Shown here in pieces: positions 9,795-16,000 of a DNA stretch of 64,000 bases. Where the stretch lies: the NCBI GenBank assembly GCA_017619715.1, contig JAFZRS010000021.1:1-64000 (forward strand). Reading direction: 5' to 3'. Source of the stretch: Oscillospiraceae bacterium (lineage in GTDB: Bacteria; Bacillota; Clostridia; Oscillospirales; Oscillospiraceae). The position numbers were made by a program, and so were the translations under genes. The notes beneath the pieces were generated by a model. It worked only from the letters and a program-made list of their open reading frames with translations, did not search any database and was not told the origin of the DNA. Each line of letters begins with the position of its first letter. Position 1 is the stretch's first letter.

Positions 9795-9816
9795 CAATTA
9801 GAAAGGAATGTTTGCA

Positions 9817-12282
9817 ATGGATATACGAATCGCCCTGGCAGGCAACCCCAATAGCGGCAAGACGACGCTGTTCAACGCACTGACCGGCTCTAATCAGTTT
9901 GTAGGCAACTGGCCCGGCGTGACTGTGGAGAAAAAGGAAGGGCGGCTGAAAAAACGGGACGGCGTGATTATTACCGACCTGCCCGGCATCTATTCCCTCT
10001 CCCCCTACACGCTGGAGGAGGTGGTGGCGCGCAACTATCTGATCGGCGAGCGGCCTGATGCTATTTTGAACATCATCGACGGCACCAATCTGGAGCGCAA
10101 TCTGTATCTGACCACGCAGCTGACGGAGTTGGGGATTCCCGTGGTAATTGCCATCAACATGATGGACGTGGTAAAGAAAAACGGCGATATCATTCATACC
10201 GCCGAGTTGAGCCGACAGCTTGGCTGTCCGGTGGTGGAAATCTCCGCACTGAAGGGTACCGGCGTGGCAGAGGCGGCGGAAGCCGCCATTGCCGCCGCCA
10301 AAGGTGCCAAGACCGTACCCATGCACACCTTCTCCGGTCCGGTGGAGCACGCACTGGCGCACATTGAGGAGGCGGCAGTGCACGGTTTGCCGGAGGAGCA
10401 GCAGCGCTGGTACGCCATCAAGATCTTCGAGCGGGACGACAAGGTGCTCTCCAAACTGGATATTCCCGCCGCCACGTTGGAGCATATCGAGGCGGATATC
10501 CAAGCCACGGAAAAGGAACTGGACGACGACGCCGAATCCATCATCACCAATGAGCGGTACATATACATCGGCACGGTACTCAAAGCCTGCTACAAGAAAA
10601 AACTGGCAGGACACCTGTCTCCCTCCGACAAGATTGATAAAATCGTGACCAACCGCTGGTTGGGACTGCCCATCTTTGCCGCGGTCATGTTCTTAATCTA
10701 CTACATCTCCATGGTCACCGTAGGCGCCGCCGCTACCGACTGGGCAAACGACGGACTTTTCGGCGACGGCTGGCATCTGCTGGGCATCGGCTCTACTGCC
10801 GCTGAGCAGGCGGGGGACGACTATGCCGCCGCCGTGCAAGCTGTGACCGCCTTTATGGGCGATACAGTGGATTGGGAAGATGAGGAGGCGACGCTTTCCG
10901 GCATTCGCTCGTTCTCCGGCTCCGGCACCGCCGTGTTTGAGGGGGAGGACGAGGAAACGCTGGAACCCTATGTCCTAACCGTCTATTACGATGCCGTTCC
11001 CGATGGCGCCGATGAGGAGACGACCAACGCCATGTCCTTTACCGACGCGGTCGCCTACTTTGAACAAAACGGCTTTGAGGAGCCGAATCCTGCCGACTAC
11101 GGCGTGTGGGTACCCGGCGTGCCTGTTCTGGTGGAGGGGCTGCTGGATGGCATTGGCTGTGCCGACTGGCTGAAGGGTCTTGTGCTGGACGGCATCGTGG
11201 CGGGTGTTGGCGCGGTGCTGGGCTTTGTGCCGCAGATGCTGGTGCTGTTCTTCCTGCTGGCGTTTGTGGAGGCGTGCGGCTATATGGCGCGTATTGCCTT
11301 CGTGCTGGATCGTGTATTCCGCCGTTTCGGTCTGTCCGGTAAGTCCTTTATCCCCATTCTGATCGGCACCGGTTGCGGTGTTCCGGGCATTATGGCGTCC
11401 CGCACCATTGAAAACGAACGGGATCGCCGCATGACCATTATGACCACCACCTTTATTCCCTGCGGCGCCAAGGTGCCCTTTATAGGCATGATCGCCGGCG
11501 CTATCTTCGGCGGCAGTGCGTGGATTGCTACCAGCGCCTATTTTGTGGGGCTTGCCGCCATCATCGTGTCCGGCATTATTCTGAAGAAGACCAAGATGTT
11601 TGCCGGAGAACCCGCGCCCTTTGTCATGGAGCTGCCCGCCTATCACTGGCCTACGCTTGGCAACGTGCTGCGCAGTATGTGGGAGCGCGGTTGGAGCTTC
11701 ATTAAGAAAGCCGGCACCATCATTCTGCTGTCCACCGTCGTGATCTGGTTCCTCACCTACTTTGGCACCGTGAACGGCACGTTCCGTATGCTCAGTGAGG
11801 ACGAGATCAATCACAGTGTCCTTGCCACCATCGGCAGCATGATTGCCTGGATCTTTACGCCTCTGGGTTGGGGCAACTGGCAGGCTGCCGTGGCGTCCAT
11901 CACGGGTTTGGTCGCCAAGGAAAACATCGTGGGTACCATGGGCGTTCTCTACGGCGCCGGCGGTTCCTCCTGGACCGGTATGGCGGCGGCATTTACCGCC
12001 GTGAGCGCCTACTCTTTCCTGGTATTTAACCTGCTGTGCGCCCCCTGTTTTGCGGCAATGGGCGCAATCCGCCGGGAGATGAACAACCCCAAATGGACGG
12101 CATTTGCCATCGGCTATCAATGCCTGTTTGCGTATCTGGTTGCCATGTGCGTCTATCAGATCGGGCGCGCCTTCACGGGCAATATGAATGTAATCGGTTT
12201 GATCGTCTCGGTGTTGGTGATCGTTGCCGCCGCGTATCTGTTGGTGCGTCCCTACAAGGAATCTGTCAAGTTGAAGGTGTGA
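9817..12282 (+). CDS. feoB: ferrous iron transporter FeoB (large form)
   Basis: Membrane Fe(II) importer with an N-terminal GTPase. The G1 loop is GNPNSGKTT, the G3 motif is DLPG and the G4-like motif is NMMD. The transmembrane part has the family blocks GTGCGVPGIMASRTI and IPCGAKVPFIGM. Residues from about 304 to 430, between the first and second membrane helices, form an unusually long acidic extracellular stretch rich in Asp and Glu. I chose ATG 9817 because AAAGGA lies 9 bases upstream; the ATG at 9808 abuts that site. The protein is 821 residues. It follows two feoA genes and an operator-like site, so iron-controlled expression is likely. Confidence 0.96.
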   Translation: MDIRIALAGNPNSGKTTLFNALTGSNQFVGNWPGVTVEKKEGRLKKRDGVIITDLPGIYSLSPYTLEEVVARNYLIGERPDAILNIIDGTNLERNLYLTTQLTELGIPVVIAINMMDVVKKNGDIIHTAELSRQLGCPVVEISALKGTGVAEAAEAAIAAAKGAKTVPMHTFSGPVEHALAHIEEAAVHGLPEEQQRWYAIKIFERDDKVLSKLDIPAATLEHIEADIQATEKELDDDAESIITNERYIYIGTVLKACYKKKLAGHLSPSDKIDKIVTNRWLGLPIFAAVMFLIYYISMVTVGAAATDWANDGLFGDGWHLLGIGSTAAEQAGDDYAAAVQAVTAFMGDTVDWEDEEATLSGIRSFSGSGTAVFEGEDEETLEPYVLTVYYDAVPDGADEETTNAMSFTDAVAYFEQNGFEEPNPADYGVWVPGVPVLVEGLLDGIGCADWLKGLVLDGIVAGVGAVLGFVPQMLVLFFLLAFVEACGYMARIAFVLDRVFRRFGLSGKSFIPILIGTGCGVPGIMASRTIENERDRRMTIMTTTFIPCGAKVPFIGMIAGAIFGGSAWIATSAYFVGLAAIIVSGIILKKTKMFAGEPAPFVMELPAYHWPTLGNVLRSMWERGWSFIKKAGTIILLSTVVIWFLTYFGTVNGTFRMLSEDEINHSVLATIGSMIAWIFTPLGWGNWQAAVASITGLVAKENIVGTMGVLYGAGGSSWTGMAAAFTAVSAYSFLVFNLLCAPCFAAMGAIRREMNNPKWTAFAIGYQCLFAYLVAMCVYQIGRAFTGNMNVIGLIVSVLVIVAAAYLLVRPYKESVKLKV

Positions 12283-12763: not shown

Positions 12764-12839
12764 AGGGGTATAGCTCAGTTGGTAGAGCAGCGGTCTCCAA
12801 AACCGCGTGTCGAGAGTTCGAGCCTTTCTGCCCCTGCCA
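12764..12839 (+). tRNA. tRNA-Trp (anticodon CCA)
   Basis: Cloverleaf with acceptor AGGGGTA/TGCCCCT, anticodon loop containing CCA and an encoded 3' CCA. Its last bases are duplicated at 12992-13013. Confidence 0.93.
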
Positions 12840-12858
12840 AATAAAGACGGCACCCTGA
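12836..12858 (+). repeat. left copy of a 23-bp direct repeat flanking the AT-rich island
   Basis: Spans the end of tRNA-Trp and the start of its terminator. The identical 23 bases recur at 15960-15982, 3.1 kb away, at the other edge of the island. Confidence 0.8.
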
Positions 12859-12876
12859 TGGGAGCCGTCTTTATTT
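12840..12876 (+). terminator. terminator of the tRNA-Trp operon
   Basis: Stem of AATAAAGACGGC with GCCGTCTTTATT, extended by CCC/GGG inside the loop. A near copy sits at 15963-16000. Confidence 0.8.
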
Positions 12877-12886
12877 CATTTGAAAA

Positions 12887-13013
12887 GAAAGGCTCGAAAA
12901 GGAGGGAGCCCGCGAAGCGGGCGGAAGAAAAACAGTCCGGGGGACTGTTTTTCGCCGACGAGTGCGTGCCGGAGAACGACAGTTCTCCGGGCGAGCCTTT
13001 CTGCCCCTGCCAA
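12887..13013 (+). repeat. hairpin-rich element carrying a second copy of the tRNA-Trp 3' end
   Basis: Begins with GAAAGGCTCG and ends with its inverted copy at 12992-13001. Three further perfect hairpins lie inside (12908-12922, 12928-12952, 12971-12988). Bases 12992-13013 repeat the last 22 bases of the tRNA-Trp region (12819-12840) exactly. From 13014 to about 13200 I see only a short GGCCA/TGGCC hairpin. Possibly a small non-autonomous element or an att remnant. Confidence 0.6.
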
Positions 13014-13202
13014 CAAAAGGCCACAAAAAGATATGGCCATGGAAAAACTCTGTTTTTCAGTTTTTTCTGCTTTTATGGGCAAAATTTTAGTCTTTGGTTT
13101 GCGCGCACAAAAATGATTTTTTCTCAGACCAGATTTGAACCCTTACGGCATCTCCATATTTAAGGAGCATAGAACGAACTATGTTCCCTTTTTCAAAAAG
13201 GA

Positions 13203-13253
13203 TTGACTTTCTTCCCAAATACTGATATCATTATATCAAGATATTATGATATC
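13203..13253 (+). promoter_or_regulatory. promoter overlapped by a 30-bp palindromic operator
   Basis: TTGACT-N17-TATCAT (13203-13231) is overlapped by a dyad at 13224-13253, whose halves match at 13 of 15 positions (GATATCAT ... ATGATATC outer arms). The layout is that of an autorepressed promoter. The likely binder is the ribbon-helix-helix-like product of the next gene. Confidence 0.65.
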
Positions 13254-13270
13254 GAAAAGGGGGCGGGATT

Positions 13271-13465
13271 GTGAACAAAACTAACATCCCGACATACGAG
13301 AAAATAATGATTCCACTGCGTCTACCACCGGAGATTTACAACCGAATGATGGATAAGGTGCAAAAGAAGAAAAAGGACGAACGCGGATATAGCGTCAATC
13401 AATATTTGACTGATATACTGACAAAAGATTTGGAGGATAAATGTTGTGAAAAAAAATGTAAGTGA
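13271..13465 (+). CDS. putative ribbon-helix-helix DNA-binding protein
   Basis: A 64-residue basic protein starting at GTG with a GGGGGCGGG-type ribosome-binding site. A short strand (KIMIPLRLPPEIY) is followed by two helices (RMMDKVQKKKKDE and SVNQYLTDILTKDL), the order seen in Arc/CopG-type ribbon-helix-helix repressors. The match is structural by eye and not a certain family hit. It overlaps the restriction-modification gene by 20 bases and is preceded by the 30-bp palindrome. It may therefore act as a control protein for that gene, or as an orphan antitoxin-like regulator. Base composition is AT-rich, like its partner. Confidence 0.65.
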   Translation: MNKTNIPTYEKIMIPLRLPPEIYNRMMDKVQKKKKDERGYSVNQYLTDILTKDLEDKCCEKKCK

Positions 13466-15683
13466 AACAAAAACAGAAAACATATTTCGTGATTTTTATG
13501 GTTCAACTACTTTTATAGAGAAGTCTGCAATTCCTGCTGAGTACGGATTTAAGAGTAAAAAGGGAACAGAATACAACGGTTATCCGGATTTTTTTATTGA
13601 CAGAGGTCTTTATGCAATAATTGTAGAGGCAAAGGCCCTTCTTCATGATAAAGCACGGGAAGAAATAAAATATTATCTATTCAACAATAAATTGAGAAAT
13701 AAAAAAGACTTGATAGGTATTGCCATTTCTGGGCAAAATAAAAATAGTTTAAATGTCACATATTATTGTTTGTTTAAGGGTAAATCAGAAATTGTTGAGT
13801 TAGTGTCGACAAAACTCCTCAAAATTGAAAATATCGAAAAGTTATATTTAAGTAAGAAGAATGGTGATCAAATCTCGGATGCTGAATTGAACACAATCTT
13901 AATAAGTTTAAACCAAACTTTTCACGACAATAATGTTCGCGATACAGATAGAAGTTTGCTTTTTTCAGGAATAATGATTGCGCTAAAAAACCCTAATTTT
14001 AGGAACACCTATAAAAGTATACAAGCGCCTTCTGACGAAGAAAGAGCAAATGTGGGAATTAATCTTTTAGACGCCCATTATATGAACGACGCGATATTAA
14101 AGGCTGTCGACATTGAATTAAAGGGAAAAATAAACAACTTATCGAAAGAGTTTTCGTGGAGAGATAGGTTCTCCTTTATTAAAACAATAGATATTCCGCT
14201 TTTAAAGTACATAGAAATCATTGAAATCGTTGAATCAAAGATTTTCATGCCTTTTAGATGTGATGAGAAATTAGATATATTAGGAAGAGCATACAAGACC
14301 TTCTTGAAAAGGGCAGGCAAAGTTGATAACAAAAATATCATATTAACACCAGACCATGTAAAAAATCTCATGGTGAAACTAGCTCGTGTTTCCGTAGATG
14401 ATGTTATATTGGATACATGCACTGGATCTGGTGGTTTCTTAATGCAAGCCATGGAAGCTATGATTAAACAAGCCAACGGGGATGCAACGAAAATCGAAAG
14501 CATAACAGAAAAACAATTAATTGGATTTGAAATAGATCCCGTTTTGTTTTCTCTAGCATGTTCAAATATGTTCCTCCATGGCGATGGACGGACAAATATG
14601 CTTTATAGAAGCAGTTTGTTAGATCTTTCTATTAAACAAGATATATTAGTTTTTGAAGAAATTAGAAAACTGAAACCAACAAAAGCGATTATTAATCCAC
14701 CTTATGAAAATGGAAATCCAATTAAATTCACAAAGCAAGCACTTGATTATTTGGAGCCTAATGGAACCTTGATTACAATTATGCCGAATCCCACATTGTC
14801 ATCTAATGTAGGCAAATTAACTGATGATATATTAAGAATTGCAAAATTGGATTTTGTAATAAAAATGCCTGTTGCAATTTTTAAGGAACAAGACAGAACC
14901 GTATATACTTCTATTTTTGGATTTACAAAAACCCCTCATAGAAAAGATGATGAAGTGGTTTTCTATGAATTAAAAGAGGATGGCTTGGTATCGGTTCAAC
15001 ACAAAGGCCGTGTTGATAAATACAATAAATGGAGTGAGATTGAATCTGATATACTTGATTGTGTTCTAAACAAAAAAGAAAAAGGTGGATTTTGCGAAAA
15101 AAGACGCATTTATGTTGAAGACAAGATTGTGTTGGCAGGCGTAAAAAAACAAATATTGGACTTACCAAATTTAGTAAAGTTTTCTGACATCTTTGACACA
15201 AGCACTTCTGGCACTTTACAAAGCGAAGACAACAACCCGGAAGGAGAATATGATTTCATAACAGCAGCTGAAAAATGGAAAAAACATGATTCGTATTCAC
15301 ACGATCAAGAAGCAATAATTTATGCAGTGGGTGCTGAGGGCTCCTTAGGAAGGGCGCACTATGTCAAAGGGAAATTTATTGCGAGCACGCTGTGCTTGAT
15401 TTTAACGCCAAAGAATCCGAAAAAGTATCCTGTAGATCTAGAATTCTATGCCCATTATTTGATGGCTATACGCGAGAAAATAGTTGTTGCTTTGCGAAAT
15501 GGAACTTCTAAATTAACTATTAAGCCAGAAGAGTTAGATGAATATCCGATTGAGTATTTCGATATTATTGAACAGAAAAACAAAAAGAAAAAAATAATTG
15601 AACGTATAGAAACTCTCAAGGAATTGCAAGAAAAACTTAATCAGGCAGAAAATAATATATACAATGATGTGTCTTTAATGTGA
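13446..15683 (+). CDS. single-chain restriction-modification enzyme (type IIG-like, nuclease + N6-adenine methylase + specificity domain)
   Basis: A 745-residue AT-rich gene starting at GTG, overlapping its upstream partner. Three parts are visible. Residues 1-120 hold a PD-(D/E)xK nuclease signature, PDFF at 47-50 and EAK at 61-63. Residues about 290-520 are a gamma-class N6-adenine methylase with TPDHV, the SAM loop DTCTGSGGF from 323 and catalytic NPPY at 417-420. Residues about 575-725 resemble a type I HsdS half (target recognition), with NGTSKLTIKPEELDEYPI near the end. Such fusions cut and methylate through one target domain. At 745 residues it is short for the class. No separate HsdR or HsdS gene is present. 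Confidence 0.85.
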   Translation: MKKNVSETKTENIFRDFYGSTTFIEKSAIPAEYGFKSKKGTEYNGYPDFFIDRGLYAIIVEAKALLHDKAREEIKYYLFNNKLRNKKDLIGIAISGQNKNSLNVTYYCLFKGKSEIVELVSTKLLKIENIEKLYLSKKNGDQISDAELNTILISLNQTFHDNNVRDTDRSLLFSGIMIALKNPNFRNTYKSIQAPSDEERANVGINLLDAHYMNDAILKAVDIELKGKINNLSKEFSWRDRFSFIKTIDIPLLKYIEIIEIVESKIFMPFRCDEKLDILGRAYKTFLKRAGKVDNKNIILTPDHVKNLMVKLARVSVDDVILDTCTGSGGFLMQAMEAMIKQANGDATKIESITEKQLIGFEIDPVLFSLACSNMFLHGDGRTNMLYRSSLLDLSIKQDILVFEEIRKLKPTKAIINPPYENGNPIKFTKQALDYLEPNGTLITIMPNPTLSSNVGKLTDDILRIAKLDFVIKMPVAIFKEQDRTVYTSIFGFTKTPHRKDDEVVFYELKEDGLVSVQHKGRVDKYNKWSEIESDILDCVLNKKEKGGFCEKRRIYVEDKIVLAGVKKQILDLPNLVKFSDIFDTSTSGTLQSEDNNPEGEYDFITAAEKWKKHDSYSHDQEAIIYAVGAEGSLGRAHYVKGKFIASTLCLILTPKNPKKYPVDLEFYAHYLMAIREKIVVALRNGTSKLTIKPEELDEYPIEYFDIIEQKNKKKKIIERIETLKELQEKLNQAENNIYNDVSLM

Positions 15684-15739
15684 TGGTTCGAATTCATATG
15701 CAAAATTGTCAAAAATATCTTTTCGTATCCATTTGCCAC

Positions 15740-15776
15740 GTTGTCGCAAGCGGTATACCGTTTGCGACAACTTTTT
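15740..15776 (+). terminator. terminator of the restriction-modification gene
   Basis: Ten-bp perfect arms GTTGTCGCAA/TTGCGACAAC around a further paired core, followed by T5. Confidence 0.85.
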
Positions 15777-15959
15777 CGCTTCGCATACAAAGTCATCTCT
15801 CACTCACTCCGTCGCTCCTCCTCTCCGCAAAAAGTCACGCTCGGCTCGCCTGCTCGCTTGTAAACGCCCTTGCGACAGCTCGCTGTCGCTGCCAACTTTT
15901 TGTGGGGGGGGTTGAATCCATCTGTCAAAAACGCAAATTCATCTTTTTCGTACCCCATA
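15777..15959. other. intergenic stretch without a recognisable gene
   Basis: Part of the 346-base gap between the restriction-modification gene and azlD. Short repeated motifs such as CTCGCCTGCTCGC and a G8 run are present, but no convincing open frame with a ribosome-binding site and no cloverleaf. Confidence 0.5.
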
Positions 15960-15982
15960 GCCAAATAAAGACGGCACCCTGA
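15960..15982 (+). repeat. right copy of the 23-bp direct repeat
   Basis: Identical to 12836-12858 at the tRNA-Trp end and terminator. Marks the right edge of the AT-rich island and leads into a second copy of the terminator stem. Confidence 0.8.
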
Positions 15983-16000
15983 CGGATGCCGTCTTTATTT
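15963..16000. terminator. second copy of the tRNA-Trp-type terminator, now serving azlD
   Basis: Fourteen-base arms (15963-15976 with 15987-16000) flanked by A/T runs. In the minus direction it closes the azlCD operon. Confidence 0.75.

Follow-up and report, generated by a model that had tools for sequence, protein, structure and literature searches.

A repeat matched to the tRNA T-arm and a restriction island behind tRNA-Trp in an Oscillospiraceae bacterium

We examined a 64,000-nt stretch of DNA from an Oscillospiraceae bacterium (the window: positions 1 to 64,000, forward strand, of contig JAFZRS010000021.1, assembly GCA_017619715.1), in which an AT-rich island encoding a restriction enzyme lies behind a tRNA-Trp gene. 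Between the gene and the island lies a folded, non-coding repeat of 116 bp, here called element E. The locus was probably formed by two successive events: insertion of E behind tRNA-Trp, followed by entry of restriction DNA without an integrase into the resulting spare tRNA end. The anatomy of E is directly visible in its location, its target-matched arms, the duplication of the tRNA end, the bodies shared between sites, and its presence or absence in relatives.

Element E and a probable divided duplication at tRNA-Trp

The features on which this reading depends are the following.

12764-12839, + strand: tRNA-Trp (cca), the intact target gene (ARAGORN)
12819-12876, + strand: left copy of a 58-bp tandem duplication, from tRNA base C56 to the terminator end (55/58 identity)
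12839-12876, + strand: terminator 1 of tRNA-Trp, left copy (inverted repeat I4)
12886-13001, + strand: element E, 116 bp, a structured repeat matched to the tRNA T-arm (fold z about -6; covariance model 12887-13002)
12886-12898, + strand: 5' arm of E, 13 nt, reverse complement of the tRNA-Trp T-arm
12908-12922, + strand: hairpin H1 of E, with a GAA loop (fold)
12927-12953, + strand: hairpin H2 of E (fold; covariation)
12969-12990, + strand: hairpin H3 of E (fold; covariation)
12992-13013, + strand: spare tRNA-Trp 3' end (exact repeat), the first part of which, 12992-13001, is the 3' arm of E
15960-16000, + strand: GCCAA and terminator 2, the right part of the duplication (direct repeat D1)

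The initial annotation had reported that two sequences from the end of tRNA-Trp recur further on, and both repeats are exact. The 22-mer CGAGCCTTTCTGCCCCTGCCAA is found at 12819-12840 and 12992-13013, and the 23-mer GCCAAATAAAGACGGCACCCTGA at 12836-12858 and 15960-15982. The latter has a longer form of 41 bp at 93% identity (12836-12876 and 15960-16000), which spans the entire terminator hairpin, the stem of which had also been noted as copied. Terminators of tRNA genes are often similar, and the repeats could be ascribed to a common terminator sequence or to chance. However, with up to three mismatches allowed, the 23-mer has only these two sites in the 1.32 Mb genome and the reversed control has none. 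The 23-mer is therefore neither a chance match nor a common terminator, and we give this explanation almost no weight. When 12992-13013 is joined to 15965-16000, 55 of 58 bases are identical to 12819-12876, and the separated pieces are best read as a single 58-bp duplication.

The initial annotation missed that 12886-13001 folds strongly, with an outer stem that is the inverted T-arm of tRNA-Trp. The fold has an outer stem of 10-11 bp enclosing three hairpins (z about -6). The T-loop and T-stem of the gene ahead of it appear in reverse complement as its 5' arm, AGAAAGGCTCGAA, so that target sequence closes the branched hairpin into which E folds. The copy of the 22-mer at 12992-13013 is the 3' end of the E segment. 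A sister E on contig C20 of the same genome lies behind tRNA-Pro, and its stem fits tRNA-Pro instead. A further E lies behind tRNA-Trp in a congeneric species.

In the first of the proposed events, E would be a small, non-coding mobile repeat that targets the T-arm of tRNA and transfer-messenger RNA (tmRNA) genes and inserted behind tRNA-Trp. Insertion would spare the gene and tandemly duplicate the stretch that starts at T-loop base C56 and runs past CCA to the end of the terminator, leaving E at the junction. The 3' junction would lie at C56, and a second break behind the terminator would produce the duplication. In the second event, the restriction DNA (13014-15959) would have entered the spare tRNA end at the boundary of CCA and the terminator, with GCCAA left on both sides. 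It seems rather likely that this entry split the 58-bp duplication into the two repeats that were first noticed. Since the rejoined halves restore at 55 of 58 bases a duplication of the type E makes elsewhere, E's spare tRNA end is the most likely point of entry.

The E family: targets, fold and spread

Eighteen aligned copies served to build a covariance model. Against it the window copy scores 76.9 bits, a score that is not independent, as this copy is among the seeds. The model found E in 27 of 295 genomes of the order, including 12 copies in genome G079 and six in the window's own genome. E copies occur in 17 of the 40 relatives searched, with other species of the genus among the carriers. 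A pattern scan of 84,980 species gave about 15 true members, in metagenome-assembled genomes titled Oscillospiraceae, Ruminococcaceae, Clostridiales, Clostridia and similar, and the stem fits the tRNA wherever the stretch includes one. E has a length of about 80-130 nt and at most three hairpins; H1 or H3 is missing in related subtypes. Some copies stand in arrays of two or three, and truncated last copies occur. One stretch behind a tRNA-Ala gene in G156 (L170, 6007-6316) holds three tandem E copies spaced about 115 nt apart, of which the second and third are nearly identical.

Targeting was counted over 85 copies. A tRNA gene lies upstream on the same strand within 1 kb of 69 copies, and 60 lie 15-75 nt behind such a gene, usually with one terminator between; about 0.06 copies would be expected there by chance. 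Since the covariance model does not include the tRNA, this proximity is independent evidence. Most of the remaining copies are at contig ends or past an island; L147 appears to be a spurious match within coding sequence. In all, 24 tRNA species serve as targets. Three more E loci (L161, L129 and L135) lie directly behind tmRNA (ssrA), suggesting that the target is the T-arm rather than the tRNA as such. The longest match of an arm to its own tRNA averages 11.4 nt, compared with 6.3 nt for other tails. The tRNA-end copy after E begins at C56 in 39 of 56 cases. At roughly one locus in three the duplication extends through the terminator, as in L200 (77 of 77 bases), L110 (70 matches over 73), L158, L162, L166, L133 and others, and it reaches up to 81 bp. 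At its tRNA and tmRNA sites, E is mostly free of cargo.

The fold is supported by covariation. In the consensus of 18 copies, 21 of 33 pairs are doubly changed. Among 90 distinct copies, 92% of cells pair, 30 of 33 pairs have changed on both sides, and there are 669 doubly changed cells compared with 207 +/- 16 in shuffles; the signal is lost when partners are slid. The 90-copy alignment was fitted to the covariance model, which favors the structure, although the margin is large. No E match above the gathering score was found in Rfam 15, and a permissive threshold gave only chance hits.

Strong covariation, the position of every copy on the tRNA strand, and the terminator that often follows the tRNA-end copy would also be expected if E were a functional structured RNA, a tRNA-linked small RNA transcribed from the tRNA strand and spread by ordinary duplication. 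The mismatches speak otherwise. On the tRNA strand, E has G.T and A.C mismatches at 57:29 when one conserved G.T pair is omitted (90:29 when it is counted); in the tRNA stems of these loci the ratio is 84:3. This suggests that selection for RNA pairing is not what maintains the E stems, although a similar ratio could arise as old copies decay. In addition, E is missing from most relatives and most tRNA-Trp loci, and truncated and decayed copies are common. We consider a functional RNA quite improbable. The loops of H1 are frequently GNA or GNNA, and such loops suit DNA hairpins.

Closely similar bodies are found behind different tRNA genes. Within one genome, tRNAs for Leu, Ser and Arg are followed by bodies 87-91% alike, and bodies 95% alike follow a Tyr tRNA in one species and a Ser tRNA in another; in every case the arm is the site's own. 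E is present at two of the 15 tRNA-Trp loci checked in the genus. The other 13 have neither E nor a tRNA-end copy within 250 nt, and inverted T-arm matches there do not exceed 9 nt. From these comparisons we infer that E is mobile. Two candidate movers are not supported. Reverse transcriptase (RVT_1) is absent from G079, which is 99% complete and holds 12 E copies, and from G000 and G039. Y1 (HUH) transposase is absent from the E-carrying genomes G039, G100, G156, G002, G006 and G022, with a weak match in G079. No protein gene recurs beside E among the first downstream open reading frames (ORFs), compared by eye. On viral contigs, the first E pattern gave only four matches, to unrelated GC-rich coding sequence; of two subtype patterns, one gave nothing and the other one host flank beside a provirus. 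E is therefore not shown to be phage-borne. An enzyme might move E in trans; the arm would be made anew at every insertion through fold-back synthesis on the target strand, or else be corrected afterwards by template switching. We regard this scheme as doubtful.

The restriction island and the order of events

The island and its parts are listed below.

13014-15959, + strand: AT-rich restriction island without an integrase gene (composition; ORFs; bounds from the split duplication)
13271-13465, + strand: small ORF of 64 aa, possibly ribbon-helix-helix-like (PHROG 13890, function unknown, 6e-5; low-confidence two-helix model)
13446-15683, + strand: type IIG-like restriction-modification protein of 745 aa (PF02384, 2e-23; PADLOC IIG, 8.4e-47)
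15717-15735, + strand: inner copy of the right-end motif (inverted repeat I3 with 13014-13034)
15740-15771, + strand: palindromic hairpin behind the restriction gene (I6)
15941-15959, + strand: outer copy of the right-end motif, abutting GCCAA (near-identical end in L034)

Between 13000 and about 15700 the GC content drops from 0.55-0.62 to 0.31-0.40, in agreement with the AT-rich island first described. Its only ORFs are the small one and the restriction gene; no integrase gene is present. The restriction-modification assignment also held. The 745-aa protein has GYPDFF..VEAK nuclease and NPPY methylase motifs, the PADLOC IIG match spans residues 5-561, and specificity-subunit hits cover 588-733. 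Nuclease, N6-methylase and specificity parts thus appear to share one chain, as in type IIG enzymes, and nothing about the protein is unusual: the enzyme itself is ordinary. Homologues 53-56% identical were found in two genomes of the order and on two viral contigs (L225, 4400-6664, and L226, 4962-7205, both 55-56% identical). No island ends of note are shared with the homologues in genomes G205 and G037. The small ORF had been called regulator-like, which is unproven; it has no match in Pfam, NCBIfam or PADLOC and a weak one to the phage family listed above. FeoB, a ferrous iron transporter, is encoded at 9808-12282 of the window, upstream of the tRNA pair, in ordinary chromosomal context.

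At the right end, two copies of ATCTTTT(T)CGTAYCC...G stand before CCA (15717 and 15941), the inner one inverted relative to the left end of the island. Since a closely similar end is found behind the tRNA-Trp of another species without E (L034), the ends may belong to a recurrent type of island. Arrays of tiny hairpins with ATGATG- or GATATA-like spacers were also seen after a tRNA end or after E's copy of one (L034, 1000-1270; L128, 1640-1870; L056, L159, L160 and L196), and are possibly another type of tRNA-linked repeat. The array in L034 ends in a motif closely resembling the right end of the window island.

Among the genus, the restriction gene is absent from all 31 other genomes, so relatives do not always carry the island. 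At the junction of tRNA-Trp and azlD, where the initial annotation suggested a comparison, no relative keeps tRNA-Trp beside azlD; relatives with a close azlD have no tRNA next to it, and no empty site was found. The proposal of a defence island at a tRNA end stands insofar as tRNA-end duplications flank foreign, AT-rich restriction DNA without an integrase. A reading of the repeats as the attachment (att) sites of one island is not supported: the 22-mer copy belongs to E, an independent and widespread element, whose duplication explains the repeats best.

Other islands lie next to E. Behind tRNA-Leu(gag) in G079 (L159, 5989-9430), E's copy of the tRNA end is followed by McrB and McrC genes and then, 4.1 kb on, by another tRNA-Leu 3' end with terminator. 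Behind tRNA-Ser(gga) in G039 (L167), a 2.1 kb island lies between E's copy and a second terminator with E. It encodes a CapR/DUF4379 zinc-ribbon protein of 654 aa, one end of which weakly resembles a homing endonuclease, and the right end of the island reads AATCTTTAGCCA. By sequence arrangement, both islands are placed in E duplications like the window island. A different case is seen at tRNA-Pro(ggg) in G002 (C14, 59685-68410; L244 and L198), where an 8.5 kb tyrosine-integrase element has its own tRNA-end repeats and E lies past its right end. In the sister genome G024 (L202), the same site has E directly behind the tRNA and no integrase element. Integrase islands are thus distinct from E.

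The events could also have occurred in reverse order, which is the reading closest to the initial annotation. The island would have entered first at the CCA/terminator boundary of tRNA-Trp, with the 41-bp repeat as its attachment duplication, and E would have inserted later behind terminator 1 with its 22-nt copy. G023 lacks E at tRNA-Trp but has a similar island end there, along with a terminator repeat, and the G002 integrase island shows that tRNA ends are used directly in the genus. However, the rejoined 58 bp fits the length and the start point of E-only duplications elsewhere, L159 and L167 have cargo beyond E's copy with tRNA-end or terminator sequence after the cargo, and the window island has no integrase gene. 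We therefore regard the reverse order as unlikely, though it is the strongest of the alternatives.

Several points count against the insertion of E followed by the island. Many E loci hold a copy of only about 21 nt and then a different terminator, which suits the reverse order as well. The exact state before the island, E directly followed by terminator 2, was not found in any strain. Only GCCAA is specific to the island edges, and 5 nt is short. Among 68 copies, the own tRNA is strictly the best match for the arm in only 25, as many tRNAs share T-arms. The outer stem of the covariance model adds to hit scores, so that an E with an unmatched arm would escape detection, and the covariation of P1 is partly ascertained. 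Finally, an enzyme moving E was not found among reverse transcriptases, Y1 transposases and neighbor genes.

Relation to known systems and implications

E resembles several known systems in part. Repetitive extragenic palindromes and bacterial interspersed mosaic elements (REP/BIME), with their RAYT (REP-associated tyrosine transposase, TnpA-REP), are likewise short, non-coding and folded; they are scattered through a single genome and presumably mobilised in trans. In contrast, E has about 80-130 nt and up to three hairpins, lies behind tRNA and tmRNA genes only, and has target-matched arms and a long target duplication, and Y1 transposases do not track it. Miniature inverted-repeat transposable elements (MITEs) share with E a short, non-autonomous form, inverted terminal arms and duplication of target DNA. 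The arms of E, however, are derived from the target and differ per site, its duplication is about 60-80 bp compared with 2-10 bp in MITEs, and no cognate parent transposon was found. Tyrosine-integrase islands at tRNA 3' ends, for example those with attachment sites of the T-loop class, share with E the target region, a gene that remains functional and a repeated tRNA end. Unlike these islands, E has an inverted-arm hairpin and no integrase, and at the G002 tRNA-Pro the two coexist separately.

A further likeness is with integron attC sites and cassette arrays, which also have a conserved fold with variable sequence, one orientation, and arrays at a fixed primary site. E could be such a site, recombined as a folded single strand into the T-loop by a tyrosine recombinase in trans, with the tRNA as the primary site. 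The strand bias, the precise C56 junction, and an excess of G.T over A.C that is low next to that of tRNA stems, which suits DNA pairing, are all consistent with this. However, the outer stem of E consists of the GTTCRAN complement and the C56 junction rather than an integron GTTRRRY core, E is usually without cargo, and the arms are matched to each target; a renewed match of arm and tRNA-end copy for each tRNA is left unexplained. No cassette integrase lies beside E, and no genome-wide search for one was made. We consider an attC-like origin improbable.

To our knowledge, no described repeat multiplies tRNA ends with a target-matched stem, and the E family appears undescribed within the literature searched. 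No repeat like E was described in the open-access text, while the survey tables of PMC8040213, with thousands of candidate structured RNAs from human microbiomes, could include E unrecognised.

We tentatively propose, at somewhat less than even odds, that E represents a new class of mobile repeat that recognises any tRNA or tmRNA T-arm, copies an inverted part of the gene to close its own fold, and seeds safe landing sites for defence genes. The 3' ends of tRNA genes are classic docking sites of bacterial islands, and their use is usually credited to integrases alone. Here a separate small repeat would multiply the docking sites, leaving the tRNA unharmed and with a stem fitted to each target. 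E would provide a dispensable second tRNA end, which islands could use without risk to the tRNA gene. If true, this would be a route by which defence genes without an integrase may build up beside tRNA genes, and it would raise the question of how a repeat copies its target.

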